Source: Cristatella mucedo
Lineage: Eukaryota > Bryozoa > Phylactolaemata > Cristatellidae
Assembly (NCBI GenBank): GCA_009760855.2
Contig: WPIO01000019.1
Coordinates: 2,911,501 to 2,975,500 of the forward strand
Direction of reading: 5' to 3'
Length of the DNA stretch: 64,000 nucleotides
Below, one piece after another: positions 1 through 63,545 of this stretch; positions within the stretch are counted from its first letter, which is position 1, and every line of letters starts with the position of its first letter. Below the pieces are notes generated by a model, which saw nothing but the letters and a program-made list of their open reading frames with translations, was not told where the DNA came from and did not search any database. The translations under genes and the position numbers were made by a program.

Positions 1-610
1 GGGAGAACCAGATTTGTATCCAGGCGCTGTACAAAGCTCTGCAAGAGAGTCAATATTCAAGGGTTAGTGACGTGCACGGTATCGAGCATGCAAAATGTAA
101 AAAAAGTGTCACACTGAAGCCAGCATGCAAGAGCATGCTTGAAGACTCTCACGGCCATCAGTTAGTGGACCTCTGGCTAGGAATGCGAAACGCATTGAAT
201 CATGCCCAGATAATCCCGCAAAGCACCAAAGAACGAAAAAGACAAGTTCACTGTAACGAAGGGAAAGCCGTCTCGGACTAGATGCGTATTAGCTGAGAAT
301 TAAATGACGCATGGTCATTGTAGTTAGTCACCGTATCAGGAAGCAAGTTCAAGACTTATGGTGCAAACGAGCTTAACGCTCAGTCCCCGAAAAAATTCAA
401 ATCAGGGCAAGGAGGATAGGTGGAGGCTGGTACGAGCGAATGGTGAAATGATCTGTAATCCAGAAAGGGGATCTTAAATAAATAAGTACTAGCTGATTGA
501 ACAGCATTTTCTGTTCTTAATCTCTATCTTATTTACCATATATATTCGCCCACCAGGCTAAGCATCGTACCAATCGCTTTTCGGAATCTAAGCGTTTAAC
601 TATACCTTGC
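1..610. other. Unassigned sequence
   Basis: No gene, repeat family or microsatellite recognised. Confidence 0.5.
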
Positions 611-2632: not shown

Positions 2633-2764
2633 GTGCTGGTTTGTTCTAGCGGTCAAGGTGCTCGCCCCGACCAAGGTCTGTCTGAGGTCGTGGGCTCGAG
2701 CCCCGAGGCATATGTGAAGCGCCTGAATAGAGATTAAGTTCTCTTGGGGCGCTATATAAATGAA
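2633..2764 (+). mobile_element. SINE family 1 (tRNA head, L2-type tail)
   Basis: The head reads GGTCAAGGTGCTCGCC (box A region), then GGTCGTGGGCTCGAGCC (box B-like). The tail is AAGCGCCTGAATAGAG, TTAAGTTCTCT, GGGGCGCTATATAAATG. It ends in a T-rich A/T tract rather than clean (ATT)n. It is a nearly complete copy of about 130 bases. Confidence 0.82.
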
Positions 2765-3235
2765 GTCTTTTTTTATTTATTTTATTTTTTCCGTCCCACC
2801 AAGACTCGATGAGGATATTACAGGAACGAGCTCACTGGCATTTCGTTTGTCATTGGTTTAAGCTGCCTCCATCGCAAAGACGAAATGGAGAAGGCGCTCG
2901 GTGAGGTGTCTGTCTAGCAAATTAAATCCTACAGAGACGAGGAGGTAGCCAACGGAGATCTGGAGGGGAAACAACTCTTTTGAGCGTGAGCAGCAGCCCC
3001 TTCCCACCCCCCTTTTCCTCCTCCGCGCACGCGAGAAAGGCCGCTTCTCGCATGTATCCATTCGCCTTGGCGCTTTGGTGCTTACGCAACAGCTATGGAT
3101 AGGAGAGTTCCTCGTTTTTGCCGATTTCCGGTCGCTATCAGCTTTACGACAAGCGTCCGTGCCTCCATCCGTCGCACATTATCCTAGAAAAAAGCGCAGC
3201 CGCGAACGGCATTAAACCGAACCGCGAACGTGCAT

Positions 3236-5035: not shown

Positions 5036-7194
5036 TGTGCTCATTTTCTAGCAGAGCTGCTAACTAATCTTGGCATTAATAATACATTTGTGTATTACGT
5101 AGCTAATAATATATATTACTGCTTCACTAGGAAACTGGTGCGACGTCTGGACATCAGGCTTCATCTCCTCGGACCCACTGATAAAGCCTAAGGCCCTCTT
5201 TTTCCCGCCAATCAAGTGGCCATCACGGTGAGTGGGATTGCTTGTTAGTCCTCTCAATTTTTACTATATCTATTCATCCTGGGTGTAAAAGAGTGCTCTG
5301 ATCACTCTACTGCGTCAGTGTGCATGGACTTTTAGCCGCTCATACTTTATGGCTTTACGGTCATACCGCCTTGACTCTGCGGACACGTCGCGTCACTACT
5401 ATCACCCACCCTGTTTCAGCTACGTCATGCTGTAACATGGTACTCAGGTTTAAGGAGCAACGCCTTTCTCTACCTTCGCACTGCCGTTTGGGCAATTTTT
5501 CGTTGATTCGGCTGATCTGTACATATAATTTGAGATGTTGCAATGCTTTCCCAGCCACCGGAAATAAGAATAATAATTATAAGCGTTTGCATAGCGCCCT
5601 AAGAAAACCGAATTTTCATCCAGGTGCATTGCAACTCGCTGCAAGAAAAGAAATAACCTGAAGTTAATCTCAGACAAGTTATTATGCTTAGAAAAGCAAA
5701 GGCACAGATAGCATAAGCGCATGCATTGGCACACATGCAAAAGCACGCAAGAATGCACTCACGGCCGCTGGTGGCACAGTTCGATACGCGTTACCGACCA
5801 GTAAGAAATGCTCGATGTGACATTGCTCCGCCAATCAGTTAGACCGACACCATCTGACACTGCGTAACCGATCGTTAAAACAGGCACCATGGGACGTAAG
5901 TGATCGACCGGTAAGACGACACGAAATCCAGAACGTGAAAATTGTTAAACCTATGTCACGGGATTCAATTCTGTGCATTCAACAAGACTGCGTCTGTCGA
6001 TATGCATCACCAGCGGGCACAGTTGGCCCCCAAGATAGGTGGGCCAGGGTTAAATGAGCTTGCCTGTCTATGCTGAAACTGGCCAGGTTGTACAGCTAAT
6101 TTTCATTACCATCGTTTCGAGCACCAAGCAGTTGCAAAGATGATTGGAGACGTTAATGCTGAGCGGCAGAGTTGACTCAAATGAAATTACAGTCAGCCTT
6201 AGATTAGCCTTAGATTAGACGTAAACACGCGTCAGAAGCCAATTGGCAGAACTTCTAGAGCCAACCATACCCCACTCTGGTAGAGACACAGCTACATATA
6301 GGTCAAACATCCAGCCCTAAATGACTAAGTTGCCAGTAAATTATGAGCCTCTGTGATTGGCTAATGGCCAACGGAAACGCTCTATTCAGCTAGGGCTCTT
6401 TGCAATCCCTTCTTGATATTGTGACCATTTGAGCACTAGAATTTGATTTAGAATTGGTTTCTTATGCTTTTCTGTCTCTACGAAAACGGACGAATATTGC
6501 TATGCGAAAACATTCGTTTTAAGTCGTAGACATGTAATCGCTGTAATAATAAAAATACATTTTTGGTCTCGTGGGCTTGTGTGAGTTGCATTTGTATAAG
6601 CTACAACCACTAGTTCTTCTATAAAAAAAGTGATGTTAATCATAATTTTACCGCTGCTCATAAATGTTCAAGCATGAAGCTCTTCGGGAGCATTGCCACA
6701 CAAGCGATCCCTCTTGTTTCTTAGTTTTTGTAATGCCGTTGAAGAGCTTCATGCATGCGTATGTTGTTATTTTATCAGCACGACCTTCTGGCGTGGGGGG
6801 AGCTGTATGCCTTTACTCTTTAGTAATTGGGACTTCCTATGCGAAATGCAGTAAATAAAAACGAGCTGTAAGTTAACCCTCACGGAGCAGACATCATGTT
6901 GAGTAGGCATAGTCTAAATGAGCCCCGTATTAGTTTAGTATCTCAGATAGGTGCAGTAGTCCAGCCTTATTAAATTAAGAAATCACGCGAATTATCTTGT
7001 TCTGTCAATTCAGAACACCGCGGAATATTAGTGTAAAGATACGCACAGCCATATCATAACAATTCCCCGACACACTGCTGTAAACGAGCTGTAGCCGCGT
7101 CTGCACTAATATCTTTAGGCCGAAAAAGAGTGTGACAATGCTAGTCCTTGGCGACGCGTGACAAATATGGAATATTAAAATAGGTGAAGATGGA

Positions 7195-12691: not shown

Positions 12692-13985
12692 TAATAATAA
12701 TAATTGTAAGACAAATTTGCATGGCACCACCAGAGAACTAAATCTCTTTCTAGGCACTTCACACATGCTGTAGAGCAAGAATGTAAACATTCACATGGAC
12801 CCAACAAATGCAGTAAGGAACGTGCACACGTTTAGCTTCTTTTTAAATGTCGTCTAATCAGGGGGGCTGTCGTGACATCGGCAGGGAGTGAGTTCCAGGT
12901 TCTGTGAGCCCGCGAACTGAAGGCACGGTCTGCGAATGAGTTGAGGTTGCTTAAAAGCACAGCTAACTGACTCGAGTCAGAAGAGTGGGTACCATGCATG
13001 ACTGGTCTGATCTACCAGGATGATTCGTGAGTAGTTGGGATAAGTATTCCGGAGCAAGAGAATGAAGGGACCAAATGCTAGGGACATGACCTTGAAGTCG
13101 ATATGTTCTAAGTGGGGAGTCGGTGCAGGTTGGTGGCCTAATGTGGCAAGCGCAACGTCCATGTTACAAAGCATGGCTGCAGATTTTGCACTAACTTGAA
13201 GTGTCATGTTGTACGGGCAGGAGGACCTACGAGCTGGGAGTCGATATGGAGTGTCACAAATGCATAGACCAACTGGGGATGTGGCATCCTTGCCTAAGCC
13301 TAAGTAGGAATGTTTGCAATGTTGCATTGCAGCTGAAACTGTGAGGGTCTGACTCTGGGCAGCTCTTCATGTGGTCGTCGAGTGAAAGGTCACTTTGGAA
13401 AGTTACTAGTTCGCGCAAATGCTACAGGAGGTATATTGGCCGAACCCCCATTTTGAATTGTAGATGTTCCAATTTCTGAATAAAACTATGTTTGTCCATA
13501 ACCGGTAATTTGGCTTATTCTCGTTCAATTTGAGAAGTTGTGTTGCCATCCAAGTGCGAATTTCGGCAATACGTTCAGCAGAGGAGCTGAGAGTTCTCGA
13601 CTTGCAGAATGTAAAGAAGTTATCAAAGCGAAGATACAGCCGCACATCATCTGCCCAAAAATCAAGAGCCTAGATTGTACCAGGCGATTACATCCATCGG
13701 CGAGAGCATGATTACAAGAGTGGGAGAAAGAGTGGCCCAAGCAGATCTCTGGGGTACTGCATATATACTTATATTTTTTATATACTTTTGGGGCTCCTCG
13801 GATGACTGCTACCCAGTGACATCAACGCTCTGAAGTATCCCTCCAAGATTGAACCTAAGCCATTTCGGTGCAGCCATGCCGAAGATGCGAAGGCGAGATG
13901 AGAGAAGCTCAAGAAAGACTTGGTGATCAGTAGAATCAGACGCTGCCGAAAGGAGTGATGACACAATTGAGTGACTCTAGGCTCT
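12692..13985 (-). mobile_element. L2-clade LINE fragment (lineage 1, diverged)
   Basis: This piece starts with the ATT-type end, continues through the GCGCC-type tail (here decayed) and the after-palm region, and reaches sequence equivalent to the palm near 13.7-13.98 kb. It is clearly related to the 16.9 kb copy but has many more substitutions and frame breaks, so it is an older insertion. Confidence 0.8.
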
Positions 13986-16931: not shown

Positions 16932-18430
16932 TAATAATAATAATAATGTACTTGACAAAGCGCCCTCAGAGAACCTAATCTCTTTCTAGGCGCTTTACAT
17001 TTGCTGCAAAGGGAAATGCAATTAAATGGTAAGTAAAATCATGCTTGAAAAACACACAAAATGAATAACATGTTTAGGGTTGACATGCACAGGGTCAGCA
17101 TGCTAATGTGGTTAGTGGCAGCATGCACAGTGTCAGCACGCATAAGCACGTGATGGACGAATCATAGGGACCCACTAAATGCTGTCCTAAATAGGTGTGC
17201 TTTTAAGTTCCTTTTAAATGTGGTCAAGTCAGGGGATGTTCTGACGTAGATCGGGAGGGAGTTCCAGGCTTTGGGAGCAAACGAACTAAATGCACGGTCT
17301 CCAAAGGATTTGAGGTTTGTACGAGGTATTTCTAGACTGTTGGATTCCAAAAAGCGGGTGGTACGATACTTGGCCTGATAGGGGAGTATGTCGGAGACAT
17401 AGGCTGGAGCCATAGAATGAAGGGACCTAAAAGTGAGCGACAAGACCTTGAAGTCAATCCGTTGCTTGACTGGTAGCCAGTGCAGGACGGCGAGAAGTGA
17501 AGTAATGTGGCAACTGCGACGCTCACGACAGACAAGCCTAGCTGCAAAGTTTTGAACCAGCTGCAATCGCCTGATCGCACATGCTGGTAGGCCAGTAAGC
17601 AGTGAGTTGCAGAAGTCGAGACGAGATGTCACGAATGCATGGACCAACTTAGACGTGGTATCCTTATCTAAACAAGCCCGAATTTTAGCAATATTATGAA
17701 GCTAAAAATAGGCAGATTTGACCGTGGAGCTGATATGGTCGTCTAACGAGAGGTCTGACACCTAGATTTCGAGCTGATTCGATAGGAGATATGCTGGCAG
17801 AGCCAATTTTGAGCGTCAGCCTTTCCAATCTCTGAATCACATTGGGTTTGCCCATAACTACTAAGTTATTTTTGTCATCGTTAATTTAAGAAAGTTTGCT
17901 GCCATCCATATGCGGATGTTATCAATGCATGTAGCAAGTGAGTTTAGAGAATTTGAGGTGCTAGAAGGCTGTGAGGGATCAAAGCAAAGGTACAACTGAG
18001 TGTCATCCGCATAGAAGTGAAAGCCTAGATTGTGCTTGGCAATCACATCAGCAAGAGGGAGAGTATAAACTGTGAAAAGAACCGGATCTAGCACGGAGCC
18101 GTGAGGTACTCCATATTTCAGAGGTACTTCAGATGATGTTTGTCCATTTACGTCAATACTCTGGAGTCTCCCACTGAGATAGGACCTGAACCACTGCAGA
18201 GCAGTGCCAGTGATGCCCAGGCGAGATAAGAGGCACTCTAGAAGAACTTTTTGATCGATGGTGTCAAAAGCTGCCGAAAGATCGAGCAAAACAAGCAGAG
18301 ACACTCTACCCATGTCTGCATTCCTAAGTAGGTCGTTGTATACCCTAAGCAATGCATGTGAGTTGGTGACAACAACTGCAGACAATCCTTGAAGATCACA
18401 GAATCTGCCACCAGTCCTCGGCCATCCACT
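16932..18430 (-). mobile_element. L2-clade LINE, 5'-truncated (longest copy of lineage 1)
   Basis: Read on the - strand, 18385-17861 encodes the reverse transcriptase palm: LDLSAAFDTID (motif A), a degenerate GVPHGSVLDPVLF, and FHFYADDTQLYL with the catalytic YADD. Positions 17647-17162 encode the region after the palm, including FVTSRLDFCNSLLTGLP, WLPVKQRIDFKVLSLTF and FGDRAFSSFAPKAWNSLP. A frame break separates the two. The 3' UTR ends in a hairpin-shaped tail and an (ATT)n run at 16932-16948. YADD motif, palm-distal region and ATT-type tail place it in the L2/CR1 group. It has no intact endonuclease and appears inactive. Confidence 0.9.
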
Positions 18431-19004
18431 AGAGCTTCTGATAAAACCCTTTAGAAAGCCAAAAAGCTAAAAAGTTTGACAGTTCTGGTAGTTGGTGGCC
18501 TACCACTTAATATTTTGCTGTCCATGTTCAAAGAAGAGAACTCCACAGCCTTAGGGATGATGGAACAAAGCCATCTATTTCTCCGTGTGGTTAGCCGGAC
18601 TCCGAAATTAGTTTCTTGGGTACTATATTTGCGCAAGAACATTGCATGTGCCTGGGTAAAAGTGGCTGCCTCGATACTCATCACATCGAGTCAACAGCTA
18701 ATCCCGTGTGCTAATTCAATGTTGCTAATCCTGGGTCAGTAGGGCACGATAAAAAAACATTGCTTCAAGGAATTCGGTGCTCGCTAAGATAACATTGTAG
18801 CATCTTGGCCACCGTGGTCCTATCCGATAGCTCCTTGAGTATTAGCGGTAAGAAGGAGTTAGTTATTTTACGGTATCTCAGCTGGTGCATTTAAACAGAT
18901 TAGCCAAAGTAATTGCTCTGCCCGTCCGTATGGTATATGACTTGAAAATTTCAGCCCAACTAGTGCACTTCAACTATTGCACTTCTTTGTTGACAGGATT
19001 GTAG

Positions 19005-19142
19005 TAATAATAATAATAATAATAATAATTCATTTGTATAGTGCCCCAAGAGAATTTAATCTCTATTCAGGCGCTTCACATCTGCCTCGGGGCTCGAGCC
19101 CACGACCTCAGCTAAGCCTCAGTAGGGGCGAGCACCTGAACA
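19005..19142 (-). mobile_element. SINE family 1
   Basis: A nearly full-length antisense copy with a clean (AAT)n end on the + strand, CATTTGTATAGTGCCCC, and the head GGGGCGAGCACCTGAAC. It is among the best-preserved copies. Confidence 0.85.
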
Positions 19143-19467
19143 GGTTCATGATTGCAATGCATCAAATGCAGCAATGAACCATGCTGTCTCCAGCTAGCAT
19201 ACAAAATGCGAGAAGCTGGCAAAATTGTCGTGAGCTCACCTTTGCCTATATCTACCATGAAAATTCCTGGGATGTTAAATGCCTTTTAAAGAGTCATAAC
19301 TAGCAGCAATTGCACAAAATACCAAAAGCTGCCTGTCTGTCTGCATGCCAGCACGTTCGAGCCATCAGTAACGAGATACGAATAGTATACGTGTTCATAA
19401 TGTACTCGAAAACAGGAGAGAGCTGAGGTGGCTCTACAGAGTGCAAGCGAAGAGAACTGCATGCGAT

Positions 19468-19625
19468 GTAACGCTGGTTTGACACAGCGATTAAGGTGCT
19501 TGCCCAGACCAAGGTCAAGGTGAATGTATTCGATGGCCGAGGTCACGCACGAGCTCGAGCCTCTTTGCTTCCGTGAAGCACCTGAATAGAGTTTAAACTC
19601 TCTCGGGATGCCGTAAAAATGAATT
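19468..19625 (+). mobile_element. SINE family 1, with internal insertion
   Basis: The head (GCGATTAAGGTGCTTGCCC) and tail (GAAGCACCTGAATAGAG) are present, but about 20 extra bases (GTGAATGTATTCGATGG) separate box A and box B regions. It lies 330 bases from the copy at 19005, in opposite orientation. Confidence 0.7.
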
Positions 19626-19724
19626 ACATGGCAATCGAATTAAGCAAGCGCGTGCGGGGGTACAGGCATTACCCCCCCCCCCGGACGTTTCCCCCCTGGG
19701 GTGGGACATTCCGCCGGGGATATT

Positions 19725-19893
19725 GTTTAGGGTTCAGGTTTTAGGGTTTAGTGTTAGGTTTAGGGTTTTTAGGGTTTAGTGTTTAGGGTTTAGGGTTTTA
19801 GGGTTTAATGTTTAGGGTTTAGAGTTTAGGCTTTGGCGATTAGGGTTTAGAGTTTAGGGTTTAAGGTTTAGGTTTTAGGGTTTAGCGTGGGCT
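19725..19893 (+). repeat. Degenerate TTTAGGG-like telomeric repeat array
   Basis: About 170 bases built from GGGTTTAG and GGGTTTTAG-like units with variants (GGGTTTAGTGTTTAG, GGGTTTAGAG). The basic unit, TTTAGGG, is the plant-type telomere motif, not the TTAGGG of most animals. It is flanked on the left by poly-C/poly-G-rich sequence (19669-19720) and on the right by a GC-rich segment. Confidence 0.8.
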
Positions 19894-20213
19894 GCGCCTC
19901 CGCCGCCTAAATCCACCCTTGCTCGTACTTCGCGCTTTAATTAGTTCGTATTAGGGCATAACTAGATCTCTTGAGGTTGAGCTATACTCAGTAGACCTCT
20001 GAGGCTTAGCGCTCATATGCAGGAACGCGCGGCACGTCGTAGCACGCGTCCGCTTTGACGTGTACGAACACGTGCCTGGCGGCGTCGAGCGGGACCAAAC
20101 TGTTTAGCTCGCCGCAGCCGCAGCCGCTCCATTAGAAACCATCCTTCCAATACATCTGTTTCTCTAATTATACTGAGTTGATTTTATTTTTTTAGAGCAT
20201 GAACTTCATTTTA

Positions 20214-20223
20214 TCATATATAC

Positions 20224-20255
<32 letters not shown>

Positions 20256-20256
20256 A
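20214..20256. repeat. (TA)n tract
   Basis: TA repeat with CATATA borders, self-complementary. Confidence 0.92.
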
Positions 20257-20776
20257 AGAGTGTGCGTCTATATTTTTAGTTATACATTCATCAACATAAG
20301 GGTAAATGTCGTATCCCGGGGGAAATGTCTGGGGAGAAACGTCCATGGGGGGGGGTATCCTACAACATGCATGCGAATGCAAGCGGAGTGAGAGCGAGCA
20401 AGAATTGGAAGATGGCGCTTGGCCAAAATGCACTGAAGTGGGTTTCACTTGCCAGCAGTGCACTCGCAGGCCGATTGGGCTGCAGCAGAGGTGCCTGCAG
20501 ACCGTCTGAGCAGCCTGCGCTTAAAAAATGAGTGATATTTATTTACCGCACTCGATTTCTTTTAGGAAACGGGGGATTCAAATGGGCTGGCATAAAAGGA
20601 GACATTTGTATGTGTTTTCTCTCTTAGATGCGATTGCAGATCTTGAAGCTTTTCAGCAGCTTTAGGAAATATGGTAATCGCGTGTGGTTTGGGCTCTAAA
20701 ATAAGTTGGGGTAACGAGTTTAAGTAGCCAACAAATACAGATTGATGCAGTGCCTACTCATAGCATGAGGTGGACG

Positions 20777-20985
20777 TAATAATAATAATAATAATATTGC
20801 ACTTGATAAAGCGCCTTCAGAGAACTTAATCTCTTTCTAGGCGCTTTACATTTGCTGCAAAGTGATATGCAATAGAATAGTAAGTAAAATCATGCTTGAA
20901 AAACAAACAAAATGAATAATATGGTTAGGGGTGACATGCACAGGGTCAGCATGCAAATGTGGTTAGTGGCAGCATGCACAGTCCC
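20777..20985 (-). mobile_element. L2-clade LINE 3' end (lineage 1)
   Basis: About 200 bases matching the 3' UTR of the 16.9 and 24.4 kb copies, beginning with (AAT)n on the + strand and including GCGCCTTCAGAGAACTTAAT and GGGTGACATGCACAGGGTCA. It is a severely 5'-truncated insertion. Confidence 0.88.
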
Positions 20986-22082
20986 TCCATAACCCCGAAA
21001 CTGGTTATAAACAATCACCCCTTTCTCCAATTTCACGCATGAACACATTAGTTGAACAGATACGGGAAAATATATGGAAATGCGAAATTCGGTGCCACTG
21101 CGTTTCTCTGGGCGCAAGAACAAAATAACTGAAAAAGTCGGAAGAACTAGAATCTGCCGGCACCTGGGAGCTCGCAGTACTGAGGGGGCACTTTGTAGTC
21201 TATTTGGCTCGTTTTCCTACGAAGTTACTGCACGGAGTCAACCGGCACGGTTTAGAGCGGCTTCATTCCGACGAGGCAGGGCAGGTATTTCAGTGCCCTG
21301 CCTCGTTGGAATTTCAGCTACTGTCACCTCGTCGCACACGTTCCAGCTCGGTCGAGCCATCGCTCGGCGCTGTCCAACGCCCGCTAGTTATGCCGCGCAC
21401 TGCCCCGCGCACTGTCCGGCCTGAGGACACACTTCGGCCGGGCTCCAGGCAGCCGTCGCCAGCCGCTGCCGCCTGCCGCTGCCTTACTGCGTCGGACTAT
21501 GCGCCGACCATTGCCTGCCTTGCCTGCCAAGGGCGGTCTTTCTTCCTAGGACGTTTCCTAGCTTAATAGAGCTCTGCGAGAAGATAGCTCAGAAGCACAG
21601 GCAGCATGCGCTGGTCGTATGCCACATGCAGTCTGCGAAGAGGTACATTTTGCCGCTAGCGCCACCGCTGCAGCGGCACACTGCAGCGGCGGCGGCTGCT
21701 GAGCCTCGGTCGCTCTCAGCGCCACGACAGCGGACGCGTCCGCTGCCCGGCTGCAGCTTCCTGCACTGCTGCGCAGCCGCCGCCGCCGCCGCCGGTCGCC
21801 CGCTCTCTCAGCACCCGCTCATGCGCAGCCACTGCTAGCGGCTCTCTCTTTGTGCCACGCTTGCTACGCTCGTCTGGCCGCATAGCCGGGCTCAGTGCTG
21901 CGGTCGCAGCCTCAGCTATCGGCTGCCCTGCTAAGCCAACTACGCCGCCCCAATAATGGTGCTGCTGCTGCAAGGCTCTCGTTGGACGTGTTTGAAACTT
22001 GGCTGCATCCCAGTTCTCAACTGTTCTGCACGAGTGAGCATGAAATTCTGGGATTTTTCTTGCTTCCGCTGGCTTCACATGT
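20986..22082. other. CpG-rich block without an identifiable gene
   Basis: 21230-21960 is rich in CG, GCC and GCCGCC units. It could be a promoter or CpG island of a gene whose exons lie elsewhere, but I see no exon with convincing splice sites. Confidence 0.35.
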
Positions 22083-22342
22083 GAGAGAGAGAGAGAAAGA
22101 GAGAACGAGAAAGAGAGAACGAGAAAGAGAGCGATAAAGAGAGGGAGAACGAGGGGGAGAAAGAAAGGGAGAAAGAAGGGAGTGGCGGAGAGGGAGGGAG
22201 GCCAACGCGCCGCTGGGTGAGTCGCGGTGTATTGGATTGGAGTACCTACTTTTTTTCGTTTCTCATTTGCCTTGTGTGTGTGGGGGGTGTGTGTGTGCGT
22301 ATGTGTGTGTGTGTGTGTGTGCGTGCGTGCGTGCGTCCGTGC

Positions 22343-22374
<32 letters not shown>
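22083..22374. repeat. GA-rich zone followed by (GT)n/(GTGC)n zone
   Basis: GAGAGA and GAAAGAGA units at 22083-22200, unique sequence, then GT and GTGC units at 22276-22374. Confidence 0.93.
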
Positions 22375-22378
<4 letters not shown>

Positions 22379-24402
22379 CAGCGCAGTGCTCACCCTGGCA
22401 GTTCTTGCTTGAGACATCGCGTGCGGGCATCCATTTATGCCCATGCCTGAACGGCCGACACTTTCTGTCGTGACCGTGGCCTAGCTAGCTGATCTGGTTT
22501 CATACGTTAGTCATAAAACACGCCGTCAAGCGTATAATCATTGATTTTCGAAGAACAGCTTTGCCGTCAGCTTCTCTCGCTGGGCCCTGTAGGCCCTTCG
22601 CGAGGCCCGAACGCGTCTGCACCCGATCGAACTGAAGGCGTGCAGACGTGCTGCGTACGAGCCTGCCTTCCGTACCTTCACTGAATGAGAGCGGCCGAGC
22701 TGGGCTAAGCGCGAAGCGTTGCTTTGAGCACTGCACGAAGGAGCTCACATCGAGGCTCGAATAGGCAGCGCCAATTATTGTAGCCGAATATTGCAGCTCT
22801 CGCCCATTAGCGTTCGGCAAAAGTAGTTCCTTGTGCTTGAGCGGTGCAGATGTACACTCGAATTAGTGAGCCGTAGGTTGCAAGTGCGTTAGAGTATTTG
22901 GCTTTGGAGCGAGCGAGCGAGCTACTGGATGAATAGAGAACTTGGTGAGCAAATTGAAAATCCGACGGGCAGCCATTGACACTGCCACTCCGTGCCGCAG
23001 CCATGAAAAGGAGGCGGCCCTCACATCCACGGAAAGTAGGGCGAATACTTCGCAATGACTAGAGGGCGACCTTGAACGTCGTTGAAGAGACTCACTTGCT
23101 CGAGTCCTGCAATCGGGTGGGTGGCCAGCCTATTCTCCTTAGAAAATCGCATCTTTCTGTCGAGAAGCGAGAACAGGAACAGCAGGTGCTTCACTACTGG
23201 CCGTGACCCGACACCAACAACCTTCGTTGGCCCGTGAAGCGAAGCCTTTTTTGAGCCTATAATTGCCTCGCCACTGCATCTTTCTGACATGAACCTAGAA
23301 CCTAGAAGAAGATCGGGTACATGCGAACGGTCTTGTTGGCACCCGGTTTAGCCCAGTGGCAAGGTGCTCATCTTGAGCTCCCAAGGCTTCGGGTCAAGCC
23401 TTGCGGCATTTGATAAATTAAATAAATCATTTGCATTGCGCCTAAGAGAACGTAATCTCTATTCAGTCGTTTCACATATGCCACGGGGCTCGCCCCACGG
23501 CCTCAGCCAGACCTCGGTTGGGTCCTTGGATAGCGAAGAAGCTCTCGTTGGGCGAGATGCAAATGAATTATAATTATTTTTTCTCGCATAAGTGATTAAC
23601 CTGTTAAAAAAGTGCAGCTGCTGGAGTGAAATAGGCGATCTGCCGAAGTAAAAAGTTCCTTGCATCGGAAACTTGGTACCCAATCAGATGAACTAAGGCT
23701 TCTGAAGCTTCGTCGCGTCGAAAGCGGTGGATGGATGGACGAATGAATGAATGATAGAGCGATGAATCAACGAACGACAGAGAGGTCGTTACGACGACGG
23801 GCGCAAGGGCCTGCCTCCCCTTTCCGTACACTCGCGCGGGCGTGCAGACAAGGAAAACTCGCCCTCTTGCACCTCGGCCAGCCTGTTGTCCAAGCAGTCC
23901 GCAGCCGTAACATCGCCCCTTTTGGAGGAGCAGACGACGGCTAGCGAGTTGCGATCGTTCGCTAGCCTATAAAATAAAGGCCCAACGGCCACTGCAGCAG
24001 CGACAGGCTCGCTCGCCGGCGGCTTCTCGGACTGTCTACCAGGCTGTCCGCCGGAAGCTGGGTGGGCGGGCTGGGGGCACAGCACGTCAGCGGCGGATGA
24101 CCCAAAGGTCAGCAACGAGTGGGAGGAGCAGACGGAGCGCGGCAGCCCTTAACAGCCACCGAAGCCGCCACTGGTAAGACTCGTTGGCGGCAATCGCTCG
24201 CTGCGAATGGTCTTAGCCACGTGTTTTAAGGGAGAAGCACATCTCGAAGAGTGTTAGGTTCAAATAAAAACGTTGGGCCGGAAATGGCACGTTACGAGAT
24301 CGATAGGCCGCAGGCTCCGTTTCGAACACTCCCTCCTTGGGAATCTTTAACGCCACGGTAACGTCAACAAATTGCGTATCTGTTGGTTGATGCAAAACTC
24401 TG
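22375..24402. other. Mostly unassigned, GC-rich at 23780-24190
   Basis: Apart from the SINE composite at 23341-23525, no feature is recognised. Confidence 0.4.
23341..23525 (-). mobile_element. SINE family 1 copy joined to an inverted head fragment
   Basis: 23401-23525 is an antisense copy (GCGCCTAAGAGAACGTAATC, GGGGCTCGCCCCACGGCC). Immediately left, 23341-23400 resembles the head in + orientation (GTTTAGCCCAGTGGCAAGGT, CTTCGGGTCAAGCC). The two form a head/inverted-copy composite. Confidence 0.65.
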
Positions 24403-25222
24403 TAATAATAATAATAATGCACTTGATAAAGTGCCCTCAGAGAACTTAATCTCTTTCTAGGCGCTTTACATTTGCTGCAAATGGAAATGCAATTGAATGG
24501 TAAGTAAAATCATGCTTGAAAAAAACAAATAAAATGAATAATATGGTTAGGGGTGACATGCACAGGGTCAGCATGCAAATGTGGTTAGTGGCAGCATGCA
24601 CAATGTCAGCACGCATAAGCACGTGAAGGACGAATCACAGGGATCCACTAAATGCTGTCCTAAATGGGTGCGTGTTTAAGTTCTTTTTTAATGTGGTCAG
24701 GTCAGGGGATGTTCTGACGCAGGTCGGGAGGGAGTTCCAGGCTTTGGGAGCAAACGAACTAAATGCACGGTCTCCAAAGGATTTGAGGTTTGTACGAGGT
24801 ATTTCTAGACTGTTGGATTCCGAAAAGCGGGTGGTACGATGCTTGGCCTGATAGGGGAGTATGTCGGAGAGATAGGCTGGAGCCATAGAATGAAGGGACC
24901 TAAAAGTGAGCGACAAAACCTTGAAACCTTGAAGTCAATCCTTTGCTTGACTGGTAGCCAGTGCAGGTCGGCGAGAAGTGGAGTCATGTGGCAACTGCGA
25001 CGCTCACGACAGACAAACCTAGCAGCAGAGTTTCGCACCAGCTGCAATCACCTGATCGCACCTGCTGGTAGGCCAGTAAGCAGTGAGTTGCAGAAGTCGA
25101 GACGGGATGTCACGAATGCATGGACCAACTTGGACGTGGTATCCTTATCTAAACAGGCCCGAATTTTAGCAATACTATGAAGCTGAAAATAGGCAGATTT
25201 GACTGTGGAGCTGATATGGTCT
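24403..25222 (-). mobile_element. L2-clade LINE fragment (lineage 1)
   Basis: About 820 bases nearly matching the 3' half of the copy at 16.9 kb, including the (ATT)n end, the hairpin tail, FGDRAFSSFAPKAWNSLP and FVTSRLDFCNSLLTGLP. A short duplication (ACCTTGAA repeated near 24921) shifts the frame. The match stops abruptly at 25222, a 5' truncation. Confidence 0.88.
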
Positions 25223-27142
25223 GAGAAAATTACGCACGATAGGAAGAATGAATAATACATGGATAGTGCAGCTGGCAGACCGCATTCAGTGCGGAGGGCA
25301 ACCTGTCCTGAATCAGTACCGCCACGAATGCCACGTGGGCTAATCGTGCGGGCACCTAAGCGATGGCGCGTCAGCCTTTTTTCACAGCAAAGGACTTCGT
25401 CCGTAAGTTGCATTGAACCTTTTTGCCCTGACTAGATTTTAACCACAGTTACAGCAGAATATTCCACTAAGTGGAAAAGTCTCTCGGAGTGCACTGCTGC
25501 CAGCACGGCGGAGACTTCTTTCTCAAAAACCATCGTATGAGTCTTCACGACGCCTTGATTGCTTACGTTGGCTCTTCATTTTTCAAAATCTTTATTAGGA
25601 AACACTTGGCCCGCTATAGAGCAGTAGGTGGGCGAGCCCCACAGCCAAATAGGCGCCTGGAGATAAATCTTGTTAGTTTGGGAAATTAAAATCTGCCAGG
25701 TGCGCTCACTCTTTACAGGCTGCTTGCTGTTACTGCTGCCCCTCGCTTTAATTTTCAACTTACAAATCCAGCGGCGGCACTTATCTGATCTCCCATTTCC
25801 CTTTGATGGCTTAGTCCTTAGGGCTTGCACATCGCTGCTATGCATTAATGCAGAATGTTCACCAAGAAAATCGGGAGAGGATGCGGAGTTGAAGAGTCCT
25901 TTTCATGGCTTTAAGGCCGTGGTGGCGGCGACCAAAGCTGCAATTTCTTTAGCCTCCCGCCGGAAGTTTATTAATTCTGTTAATAATTCGTATAAATCAT
26001 TCAAATAATAAATATATTTATTTAATATACTTATTATTTAATATTTAATAAATTGTCTATAAATTTTGCCGTGATGCCGGGAATTTCCTTATTTAGCAAT
26101 CCTCTCCCTTGGAAACCCGTTAGCCTCGCTTTCGTGGCTACCGGGCTGGGCTCTTACGCTTACGCCGAGTTGGTTTGGCCCAGCGGTTAGGGTGCTCGCC
26201 CCGATCAAGGTCTGGCCGAGGTCGTGGGCTCGAGCCCCATGGCATATGTGAAGCGCCTGAATAGAGATTAAGTAGGGCTTATAGGATTAATATATTATCT
26301 TAGGGCGCTATACAAATGAAATAATTATATATAAGGTAGGCCTTCCAGACTTTAGAGGGTGGCTTTAGTGGTTTGCTGGGGTGGGGCTTTGGCTGGCGGT
26401 CTCATGCCGCTTCCCTCAAAGAGAGCTACTACTCACCGAGTAGGGATGCAAGGACTGCTAGAGCGTTGAGCCTTCGCTGTGTTGGTCCATGTTCAGGTTT
26501 ATTCCCTTTCTGTCTCCAAAAAAGGTTTGTCATTGTATATAGGGGCAATCATTCTTGTATTACGTCAGTAAAGGGGAATTTCTCGTCATTTTAAAGACAA
26601 GGTAAAGAGGCCTGCCGATCGGTGTGCCGAAAGCGAGAAGCTTGTGGCAGACAAATTGATGCGAAAATTGCCTTTTGCTTCTAGACGGGTAAGTCTAAAG
26701 AGACTTATGGGCGACGTGCCTTCAGTTGCCGAAAAAAAATTGGGAATAGCAGCCATCTAGATTGGCTGCCGCATGGCCTTTCCGGGCGGCGCGCCTGCGA
26801 CGAGCAGCTTCGAGATATTTCTCCCTGGAGAGAGCGCCCACCTACAGTTTCTAAAGGGGCGGAGCACTCGCCTGCCAAGCAGGGAAGCAGCAGTGCATCG
26901 CTTCAGGCTCTCCAAATATGGCTGTTGGGCTTTTTTAAAGATGGAGTCTTAGACGACCGCCCGGCACAGCGTCCTCCGGCGCTCAGATCCCGACTCGCCG
27001 AGCGTTGGGCATAACGGTTTGCAAACAGGCGCCGATGAGCCCGTCACTTTCGGCGCGTTGAAGATAGAGCCCCCTTTTAGAAGAGGGTGCCATTTATTTT
27101 CAGAAGAGCCTGTCGGGTTTGTGCGGATGAGGTAGCCAATAC
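25223..27142. other. Unassigned apart from one SINE
   Basis: An AT-rich patch at 25970-26060 consists of TAAT/ATTTA units. No exon is supported. Confidence 0.4.
26169..26322 (+). mobile_element. SINE family 1, tail interrupted
   Basis: A clear tRNA-like head (CCCAGCGGTTAGGGTGCTC, GGTCGTGGGCTCGAGCCCC) and a tail in which about 20 AT-rich bases (26274-26301) interrupt the hairpin loop between GAGATTAAGT and AGGGCGCTATAC. Confidence 0.82.
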
Positions 27143-28977: not shown

Positions 28978-29060
28978 AGACGTCTTATCAAGCGCCTAGA
29001 AAGAGATTGAGTTCTCTGAGGGCGCTTTATCAAGTGCATTATTTTTATTATTATTATTAG
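28978..29060 (+). mobile_element. L2 3' tail fragment
   Basis: Contains only the terminal hairpin (AAGCGCCTAGAAAGAG ... GGGCGCTTTATC) and the (ATT)n end. It is one of the shortest insertions of lineage 1. Confidence 0.8.
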
Positions 29061-37495: not shown

Positions 37496-38049
37496 CCAAT
37501 GTAGTCTTAATACCTAAGTCATGCTAAAGAACGCCAGTTCTAAATAAATCCCTATAATGTCAACTCGAAAATTCAATTTTGAAACTTGCTTAACATGTGT
37601 TCGCCTACATTGTTGCCACTGCAATTTACATACGTGGTAGTGGTGTGGTTTAAAAGTTAACCTTGAACTATAATCATACATATGGAAGGTTGAGCCTTTC
37701 CTTACGTTCATCAACTAGTCTGAAAGCAACTCTTGAGACGGCACAAATCAGCTCCTTCTGATCTGGGCTCTGGTGCATGCGTCCTATGTGTCCGAGCCAC
37801 CTTGAGTAATGCTGTTCTGGCAATAAGCAGCCGTAATTAGTGAAGCTGAATTGGCCGTCGAGCATGTGGCCTCAGCTAATGGTACATGTCTCCTGTTCGT
37901 CAAATTTGGGGAGGTGGCATTAATCTTGCCTGCGAGTTCTTAAGGTTCTAGGTGCAAATCCAGAGGGCGACACGATGATAATGTATCTCCGTCTGCGACT
38001 CCACAAAGCCATAAAGACTATGTGGGTGTTACGCAGGAGAGTTTTGTAT

Positions 38050-39730
38050 AGCCCACTCGCAGCCTAAGCGGCTTTCGGTACGCATTCGGTAGCCAACAGA
38101 CTTCGTCTCATGCAACAAAGAGAAAGTGGGAACCATAGCAGAGTCAGCAGAGCAGTTGAGGTAGTGAGTAACATGGAAGTAGGAGCTCAGGACTGCTGAA
38201 AAGGATGAGCCATAGTCGGCAGCAGGAGAGTAGTTGCCGTTGCATAAGAACTGTGGAAGCGAGTTCCATGGTCTAGGACCTGCAGAGCTAAAGCTTCTGT
38301 CGCCAACGGTCTTTAAGCGAAGGAATAGAACAGATAATTTATTGCCCACATGGGACCTGAGGGCACGAAGAGGCTGAAACTGGTGAAACTGGTGCAGCAG
38401 TTCAGCTAGGTACGAAGGAGCCAAGCCGTGGCAAGCCTTGTGGGTCAGCATAAGAACTTTCCTCTGTATCCGTTGCTCAACCGGCAGCCATCATTGCTCT
38501 TTTAGCAAAGGAGACACATGCTCAAACCTCTGGGACTTGAAGTCTAGCCTTGCAGCCATATTCATAGTCAGCTGCAGTGGCCTAATTGCTTTCTTTGGTC
38601 GCCTAGCCAAAAGGTAATTACAAGAATCAAGCTGAGACAGAACTAAGGAGCTAGTTAAATATTTTGCAAGCCACTGTGGAAGACAGCTCCTAATCTTGGA
38701 TAGGGATCTGACGTGATGGCAAGCTGTAGAAGCAGTCTTTTGAATGAAGCTTTTAAAATTGAGGCAGCTGTCGAAAACGACACCTAAATTTCGAGCACGT
38801 GGTGATGGTTGCACGACAGCATCACCTATTAGAAGCGCAAAGCCTTTTAATCCAGCCACATGCTTAGGGTATCCTATGAGCAGTAGTTCGGTTTTATCGT
38901 CATTTAGTTTCTATGAGTTTTCCGACATCCAGGATCGAATGTCGGCAAGGCAAGCATTCAGTTTCTCAGCTGCGGCAGCAGATTCCGACGGTTTGAAGGA
39001 CAAATACAGCTGAGTATCGTCAGCATAAAAGTGATATCCTACTCCATGGGCCTTAATCACTTTTTCCAGAGGTTGAGTATAAATGGAGAACAGCAAGGGA
39101 CCGAGTACAGACATTTGAGGGGCTTCACAGGTGACCCGTCTCGTGTGTGAGACCTGAACCCCACACGACTCGGATTGAACACGATAAGATAAGTACGATT
39201 TAAATCACGCCAGCGCTTTGCTGCCAGACCGATCGTTGTTCTCAAGCGTTCAAGTAGAACAGCATGATCAATGGTGTCGAAGGCAGCTGACAGATCTAGC
39301 AGTGCTAGGGCAGTGACATTACCGTCATCGTTGCCAAGTAGAATGTCACAGTTAACACGGATGAGAGAAGTATAAGTGGAGTGCTGCCTCTTGAACCCTG
39401 ATTGAAATGTTTCTGACATTTCATTCTTTTCCATATGTTCAACTAGCTGCTTAGCAACAATTTTTTCAAGAATTTTTTACTAGAAAGGAAGAAGGGAAAC
39501 TGGGCGATAGTTTGCAACAACTTCTGTATCTAATCCAGGTTTTTAAGTATGGGTCTAACGGTTGCCGATTTGAAGGACTTGGGGACGACCCAGTTTACCA
39601 AAGAAGCATAAAAAATCTCGGTTATGGCAGGGCAAAGGTGGCCTGCCAGTGAAGACCACAGAGATGAGGTCTTCTCAGGAGACGAGCAGCTCAGGAGGCA
39701 AGACACGACTTCCATTCCTTCTCCATCATT
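38050..39730 (-). mobile_element. L2-clade LINE, second lineage, broken reverse transcriptase
   Basis: On the - strand, five frames in order cover the reverse transcriptase and the region after it: 39715-39530 (WVVPKSFKSATVRPILK), 39434-39057 (LALLDLSAAFDTIDHAVLLE), 39114-38911 (SVLGPLLFSIYTQPL and YADDTQLYLSF), 38859-38491 (ARNLGVVFDSCLNFKSFI and SSLVLSQLDSCNYLLA) and 38451-38029 (FLRLKTVGDRSFSSAGPRPW). The frames overlap or are offset, so several frameshifts have occurred. Its 3' UTR differs completely from lineage 1. No intact endonuclease is seen upstream. Confidence 0.88.
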
Positions 39731-46822: not shown

Positions 46823-47015
46823 AGTTAATAATAATAATAATAATAATGCACTTGATAAAGCGCCCTCAGAGAACTTAATCTCTCTCTAGGCGCTTTACAT
46901 TTGCTGCAAAGGGAAATGCAATTGAATGGTGAGTAAAATCCTGCTTGATAAACAAACAAAATGAATAACATGGTTAGGGGTGACATGCACAGGGTCAGCA
47001 TGCAAATGTGGTTAG
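46823..47015 (-). mobile_element. L2-clade LINE 3' end next to a coding exon
   Basis: The same 3' UTR segment as at 20.8 kb, with (AAT)n, GCGCCCTCAGAGAACTTAAT and the CACAGGGTCAGCATGC block. It stops at about 47015, 23 bases before the exon acceptor at 47037. It is antisense to the host gene. Confidence 0.88.
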
Positions 47016-47037
47016 AGTTCGTACGTTTCCCTCTCAG

Positions 47038-62093: not shown

Positions 62094-63189
62094 GTGTGTG
62101 TATGGTGCCTCTGTGTAGCTGCTGTTGCTGTGCACTAACTTCCTCATTTGGAACTAAGTGTGTTCATTGCTGCGTTGCTGTGTCCCGACTCTCCAACTGC
62201 ACTGGCTTATCTGTCTGGGGTACTAGAGAACTCTACACCCGTGAGGTGATCCGAACAGTAGGCTAGAAATATTTCGCGAGCACTTTCATTCTACTGAACT
62301 CACTTTGGCTGCATCAGGCTGACATATACATTCTTTCCCGGTTGCCTGTTATAGATGGAAAATGAGTTGCAGAGGAATCTGTAGGCTTGCTAAGAAATAA
62401 TCGGCCAGATGCAGTTGGTATTGATTTTAATAAGTTGCAGCAAGCTGAGCACCTGCTGCGATCTTGCCTGTTCTTCACTCGGGAGGCCTGTGCTCTCTTA
62501 TCTTCTGTATTCTGCCTGATCAAATGATTTGTGGTGTTGAGATCGTAATAGAGATGCATACGCCGGCCTACGGCAGTGCTGTGCCCAGATAATGTCTGCC
62601 GGTACTAGGCTGGGGGCCCTCCCGACCTTGACTGACCAATCGAGGCGCAGCGTTCCTGCTGCTGGCGCTAGCAACAGAGCTGGCCGATCGGAGCTCAGCG
62701 TTCCTGGGCGCAGACGACAGGAAGCTCCGTTAGCATTAACGTCTGTAGATAGAGTCGTTGATAAAACCAGTTCGGTTATGTTCCGAGTGCTCAAGTCGTT
62801 TGCTGTATAGCAATATGTGGCTCTCGCTCACAACATTTGCTTGTTGCAGCCACTTGTGAACATGCCGTTACTGGTAGAGCTGGCATGAAGCACAATATGA
62901 GCCAGTCAGGCCGTGTCACACGGTGCTTAGTTAGTGATAAGGAAGATGTTTAGCTTTAAATATGCCTTTCATAAAGCTGATGGTTATTATGATGTTGGCG
63001 ATCTTCGACGTTCTGCACTTGTATTGTCAAGTCAAGCTGCGGGAAGCTAGCTTCACTTCTTCAGCTCCTCACCAGTGACTAGCTGCTACGTCGATGTGTG
63101 GCAGTTGAGCGCTGCCGACTTGGGGATCCTAGCTTCTCTAGATGCCACTCTTGATCTAGCTGCTTGCCTCAGCAGCTGTCATTAATATA

Positions 63190-63545
63190 ATACTAATGAT
63201 GATATACTTGATAAAGCACCCCCAAATAACTCAATCTCTTTCTAGGCATTTTACATCTGCTTCGAAGGAAACACGATCGAATGGTTAGTGGTGGCATGCT
63301 CAATAAACAGCAAGAATTACATGGTTAGGGGTGACATGCACAGGGTCAGCATGCAAGTGTGGTTACTGGCAGCATGCACAGTGTCAGCACACATTAGCAC
63401 ATAAAGGACAAATCACGGGGACCCACTAAATGCTGTCCTAAATAGGTGCGTTTTTAGTTGTTTTTTTTTAATGTGGCCAAGTCAGATGTCGTGACATTAG
63501 TCGGAGTGAGTTCCAGGCTTTGGGAGCATACGAACTAAAGGCACT
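63190..63545 (-). mobile_element. L2-clade LINE 3' fragment (lineage 1) in HEATR1 intron 8
   Basis: It starts with a decayed ATT-type end and hairpin tail, then the GGGTGACATGCACAGGGTCA block and the beginning of the coding segment (GAGTTCCAGGCTTTGGGAGC). It is antisense to HEATR1. Confidence 0.85.

Follow-up and report, generated by a model that had tools for sequence, protein, structure and literature searches.

A hairpin tail shared by L2-like LINEs and a SINE in Cristatella mucedo, with a SINE tail that matches an old LINE lineage better than a young one

In a 64,000-nucleotide stretch of the bryozoan Cristatella mucedo genome (contig WPIO01000019.1, positions 2,911,501 to 2,975,500; hereafter the window) we find that several lineages of long interspersed nuclear elements (LINEs) and a short interspersed nuclear element (SINE) end in the same strongly folding hairpin, and that the SINE tail matches an old and highly diverged LINE lineage (lineage 3) better than the younger lineage 1. 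A first-pass annotation of this stretch had paired the SINE with lineage 1 and had labelled the LINEs L2, a name that we keep as an assumption resting on likeness. We consider it probable that several lineages of one L2-like LINE group terminate in homologous hairpins, each with a short AT-rich repeat after it, that the protein of open reading frame 2 (ORF2) binds this hairpin when it initiates target-primed reverse transcription in the manner of a stringent-type LINE, and that the old lineage-3 tail was acquired by a SINE whose promoter boxes are of the tRNA type. The SINE would then be copyable by, and would depend upon, the LINE protein.

The genome examined was the window's own (572,011,866 bases in 688 contigs), and the set analysed closely consisted of the window and positions 1-200,000 of contig C1 (264 kb, with 7,500 N), later extended by 14 loci on other contigs (a fifteenth, L029, overlaps C1). 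A tail model built from sequence only, without any structure, gave 121 hits in the window and the 200 kb of C1; removal of 18 antisense hits of the near-palindromic tail left 103 tails, 21 of them preceded by a SINE head and 82 without one. The 16-base core of the tail, AGAGATTAAGTTCTCT, has 15 matches in the window at no more than two mismatches against 0.11 expected by shuffling, and 27,242 exact matches genome-wide against none for the reversed pattern, so that both tails are present far above chance and in the orientation originally given. The tail strings quoted by the first-pass annotation prove to be consensus sequences. That of the SINE occurs verbatim at 2710-2763, and that of the LINE occurs verbatim in four copies on C1, while the five window copies nearest to it (16951, 20802, 24422, 46851 and 28987) each depart from it at one place. 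Of the SINE copies in the interval where the shared tail had been reported (16932-26322), that at 26172-26324 has an insertion in the hairpin loop, and those at 19022-19143 and 23421-23524 have substitutions.

The consensus tails fold at -22.4 kcal/mol (z -4.64) for lineage 1 and -24.3 kcal/mol (z -5.48) for the SINE, with 0 of 200 shuffles as good in either case, and a lineage-3 string written by eye with the SINE's loop letters folds at -18.0 (z -3.47). The hairpin has two stems, an outer one of about 11 bp and an inner one of 5 bp, which are separated by a 4x2 internal loop and capped by a loop of 6 nt. This bears out the proposed scheme of two stems and a loop except that the outer stem is longer than had been described. 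In lineage 1 the outer stem is GUAAAGCGCCU / GGGCGCUUUAU, and in the SINE it contains one A.A mismatch; the letters of the internal loop are AGAA/GA in lineage 1 versus GAAU/UG in the SINE, and the inner stem and TTAAGT loop are identical in many copies of both. In a set of 108 distinct tails, pairing holds in 83.3% of stem cells, compared with 38.9-61.1% when the partner is slid by 1-3 columns. The shared hairpin of the SINE and LINE tails is real. One tail pattern had no match among the viral contigs scanned, and neither of two core words of the tail was found in the PMC papers searched.

That the longer element is a LINE, as first proposed, is supported by a lineage-1 copy on C1 (80,738-83,777, minus strand), in which an endonuclease domain (Exo_endo_phos, 4e-12) and a reverse transcriptase (RT) domain (RVT_1, 5.2e-29) lie in two overlapping frames. 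Between the two domains we noted by eye GLWFTTDIKLAKSTKRKLEKTY within a basic stretch, following the pattern W-x15-E-x2-Y. Its Trp, the Glu at +16 and the aromatic Tyr at +19 have the spacing of W325, E341 and W344 in the tail-binding region of ZfL2-2 (PMC4176376). Among the four conserved non-basic residues the Trp and Glu are kept, Tyr for Trp is conservative and Leu for Pro is not. Measured against one copy in the window, lineage-1 hits diverge by 5.4-37.4% (31 hits no shorter than 120 nt, among them the query at 0). A second L2-like lineage (LAPSYLAELL, window 38032-38529, minus strand) was considered as the SINE's partner and rejected, its 3' end being different in the copies read; in the C1 copies it ends in about ..GGAGATACATTACATT. 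Separately, we observed a pyrimidine tract plus YAG resembling a splice acceptor (TTTCCCTTTGCAG, TTTTCTTGCAG) a few bases upstream of the hairpin, for example at window 17002-17030 and 5635-5660 on the minus strand. It occurs in both lineage 1 and lineage 3 and is present at 40 of 64 LINE tails versus 0 of 18 SINE tails whose 5' arm start is complete.

The SINE is about 135 bp long, starts with GAGCTGGTTTGGCCCAGCGG and carries the hairpin at its end, after which its copies are AT-rich and irregular. By eye it contains A-box- and B-box-like stretches, TGGCCCAGCGG and GGGCTCGAGCCCC, and a tRNA origin is likely; Rfam gave no tRNA match for one young SINE copy up to E 10, and a search of the window with ARAGORN yielded no tRNA. 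A 35-base stretch of the SINE with one base left free has 2,720 exact matches in the genome (control 0). After filtering by length and start, 22 copies remained, and these lie 2.2-34.1% from their consensus.

Lineage 3 is made up of degraded LINE copies in the window (5,566-5,681) and on C1 that are alike just 5' of the tail and unlike lineage 1 there. A search pattern for this upstream sequence, which covers just the first two letters of the tail, has 47 copies genome-wide (control 0), and the 15 that were fetched, together with three further copies, gave the consensus tail TGTAAAGCACCTGAATAGAGATTTAGTTCTCTTAGGGCGCTATACAAACGACTTATTATT (18 sequences). By eye, in 12 copies, the frame ends before the tail in ...LKMHRFRSAFPSPL-stop, which resembles the lineage-1 C-terminus ...LKTHLFRTAFSGSL-stop. 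At G000:C687:7491535-7491751 there are three occurrences of the lineage-3 upstream word, 96 bases apart, as though the 3' end of a LINE had turned into a small tandem array.

The SINE consensus tail is identical to that of lineage 3 at 47/53 columns and to that of lineage 1 at 45/55. When individual tails were assigned by consensus alignment scores, with lineage 3 and lineage 1 as the only two choices, 20 of the 21 SINE tails were closer to lineage 3, none was closer to lineage 1 and one was tied (C1 168798); three further SINEs on other contigs (L035, L036 and L042) were all closer to lineage 3, bringing the count to 23/24, with 0 for lineage 1 and 1 tie. In the controls, 28/28 lineage-1 tails were closer to lineage 1 and 15/16 lineage-3 tails closer to lineage 3 (one tie); these controls are partly circular, both sets overlapping the sequences from which the consensuses were made and the lineage-1 set having been chosen by tail letters. 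The other 54 tails, some of them headless SINE fragments, divided into 31 nearer to lineage 1, 19 nearer to lineage 3 and 4 ties. The better match of lineage 3 to the SINE extends to the sequence between the stems, on whose difference the first-pass annotation had remarked. One lineage-3 copy, in L045, has the SINE's own 3' arm TTGGGGCGCTATACAAATGA. A sublineage ending in GGGCGCTATACAAATGTATTATT or close to it (C1 52371, 54490 and 183960) has a by-eye consensus that shares 45/54 columns with the SINE, with fewer mismatches than lineage 1 and more than lineage 3.

These counts bear directly on the pairing first suggested, in which lineage 1 both supplied the SINE's tail and mobilises the SINE. 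Lineage 1 does have young copies, and the inner stem and loop that it holds in common with the SINE fit such a pairing, but the internal loop and the 3' flank differ, and since no SINE tail among the 24 is closer to lineage 1 we reject this lineage as the source of the tail and regard the pairing as highly improbable. A better fit of the SINE tails to a different LINE is what the first-pass annotation had itself named as refuting evidence; it counts against the choice of partner and leaves the shared hairpin standing. A special case of our proposal is that the tail came from lineage 3 and that lineage 1 later mobilised the SINE through the shared inner stem and loop, without any exchange of tails. 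The 12 lineage-3 copies compared are 34-56% apart pairwise in a rough alignment, and therefore none of these is young, while SINE copies begin at 2.2% off consensus; a lineage-3 body joined to a SINE-like 5' arm has 2 exact matches in the genome versus 2,720 for the SINE arm, the two patterns differing in length and fixed letters. Some SINE copies are far younger than the lineage-3 copies seen, and because of this the SINE may have outlasted the donor of its tail, in which case we infer that lineage 1 is its likeliest recent mobiliser. In zebrafish L2s specificity is determined by the loop, and the stem is required as well (PMC4176376). The third loop base of lineage 1 is A in 13 copies, whose median divergence is 5.5%, and G in 11 copies, whose median is 19% (Mann-Whitney p 0.004; 4 of 28 copies excluded for coverage or base), a test that is biased by a consensus dominated by young copies. 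In the SINE it is A in 18 of 21 copies, and by hand count A in 88, T in 10 and G in 2 of the 100 matches listed of the 2,720. The age trend in the SINE, however, rests on two old copies, those with the most diverged heads, which have G and C, and one of the youngest copies (C1 54002, 2.5%) has T, the lineage-3 consensus at this base. The exact patterns could also miss a small young group of lineage 3, and the tail ends differ, as (ATT)-type runs follow 27/28 lineage-1 tails and 4/21 SINE tails. The A at this base in young lineage-1 and SINE copies agrees with a switch of the SINE's partner to lineage 1 and is only suggestive, not proof, and we hold later mobilisation by lineage 1 as a tentative possibility. 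With slightly more doubt, we speculate that the inner stem and 6-nt loop could act as a common password for this genome's L2-like reverse transcriptases, whose lineages differ greatly in age, the SINE having outlived its donor and passed to another LINE without a tail swap while its loop changed to the base of the young LINE.

It might also be that the hairpin reflects mere common descent of LINE tails and is now functionless, with another LINE moving the SINE through its AT-rich end. The weak covariation described below and the irregularity of the SINE ends agree with this, but the core is kept across lineages with diverged bodies, the fold is strong and the SINE copies number in the thousands, and we find this explanation very unlikely. 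Several results nevertheless weigh against capture of a lineage-3 hairpin that is gripped by the ORF2 protein. Covariation across copies is hardly above that of shuffles: shuffled partners still pair 82.7% of stem cells (10/500 as high as observed), changes on both sides number 30 versus 23.4 (reached in 33/500), and the covariation score is 0.135 versus 0.128 (29/500), so that the check for compensatory changes suggested in the first-pass annotation came out weak. This test at the level of copies says little either way, because copies are expected to decay neutrally after insertion, and the right unit would be the lineage consensuses, which are too few in this set. The outer stem shows one A-U to U-A swap (3 cells), and C-G/G-C to U-A/A-U change types occur at a CpG (6 and 8 cells). 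The latter may be CpG decay, even though loss of CpG is mild here (observed/expected 0.84-0.87); such changes are insufficient as proof of the fold. On the side of the donor, the stem of the lineage-3 consensus is interrupted by an A.C mismatch (GCACC/GGCGC) that may result from decay, and its loop consensus is TTTAGT versus TTAAGT in the SINE and young lineage 1. A tblastn search with the lineage-1 C-terminus missed the lineage-3 consensus C-terminus (best E 2.8), and the single copy that does match, L029 (4e-11), is ambiguous because a lineage-1 tail lies between the matching stretch and the lineage-3 tail. On the side of the protein, a search of lineage-1 ORF2 for the strict PW..E..W tail-binding motif gave no match, and the region noted above is a looser likeness seen by eye. 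On the side of the SINE, target-site duplications are not clear in 16 copies, whose longest shared words are 2-7 nt, and the (ATT)-type runs just mentioned, counted at 9 bases or more, are mostly absent after its tails.

Shared LINE/SINE tails are known, and are usually described as near-identical pairs. UnaL2 of eel and ZfL2-1 and ZfL2-2 of zebrafish are stringent-type L2-clade LINEs (PMC4176376); they resemble the element described here in having an endonuclease and RT in ORF2 and a 3' hairpin in the tail, and the tail-binding region of ZfL2 is placed between the two domains, where we find the looser match. In eel a SINE, UnaSINE1, likewise shares the LINE tail, and in the HAmo SINE/HAmoL2 pair of silver and bighead carp the two tails form the same hairpin, the SINE being tRNA-related with a LINE2-derived tail (PMC2653535). 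The sharing of a folded tail, as in the vertebrate L2/SINE pairs invoked by the first-pass annotation, is upheld (PMC4176376, PMC2653535), and the mechanism is likely the known one of stringent-type LINEs. There are differences as well. According to PMC2653535, the HAmo pair has almost identical tails, obvious target-site duplications and a TAAATG tail repeat, and the loop of both UnaL2 and HAmo is GGAUA, whereas here the SINE and LINE tails differ, the duplications are not clear, the end is (ATT)n or AT-rich and the loop is UUAAGU. Furthermore, unlike in UnaL2 and ZfL2, one hairpin is common here to several lineages of very different age, and it connects a SINE that has the old type of tail with two LINE lineages, one ancient and one young. 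This system lets one ask which part of the hairpin is recognised, and whether a SINE changes partner once its LINE dies out.

Table 1. LINE and SINE copies carrying the tail in the window.
Positions	Strand	Feature	Evidence
16932..18466	-	5'-truncated lineage-1 LINE copy: RT fragment 17861-18466, ORF2 C-terminus, 3' untranslated region, hairpin 16951-17001, (ATT)n	RVT_1 E 3.4e-14, C-terminal frame, tail
20780..20982	-	Lineage-1 LINE 3' end, hairpin 20802-20852, (ATT)n	
24400..25221	-	Lineage-1 LINE 3' end and ORF2 C-terminus, hairpin 24422-24472, (ATT)n	
46829..47031	-	Lineage-1 LINE 3' end, hairpin 46851-46901	
28987..29043	+	Lineage-1 tail alone, hairpin and (ATT)n	
63189..63467	-	Older LINE 3' end, decayed hairpin 63207-63257	
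2639..2769	+	SINE copy, hairpin 2710-2763 verbatim consensus	nhmmer 114 bits
3254..3375	-	SINE copy, hairpin damaged	
19022..19143	-	SINE copy, hairpin 19030-19082 (substitutions), then (ATT)n	
19476..19626	+	SINE copy, old	
23421..23524	-	SINE copy, 5'-truncated, with substitutions	
26172..26324	+	SINE copy, insertion within hairpin loop	
60688..60856	-	SINE copy, tail hairpin segments duplicated	
5566..5681	-	Lineage-3 LINE 3' end, ancient; hairpin 5584-5634	
2..81	-	Lineage-3-like LINE 3' end, cut by the window edge	
12715..12776	-	Old LINE tail, other sublineage	

Eight open reading frames of the window gave no Pfam match. On C1, at about 100.2-119.6 kb (L019-L020), there is a dense run of open reading frames, one of which by eye is like a protein-primed DNA polymerase B, and the run is perhaps a polinton-like element. 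Within the window, at 19721-19890 and internal to the contig, we also observed degenerate repeats of the TTTAGGG type, a telomere motif like that of plants and algae.

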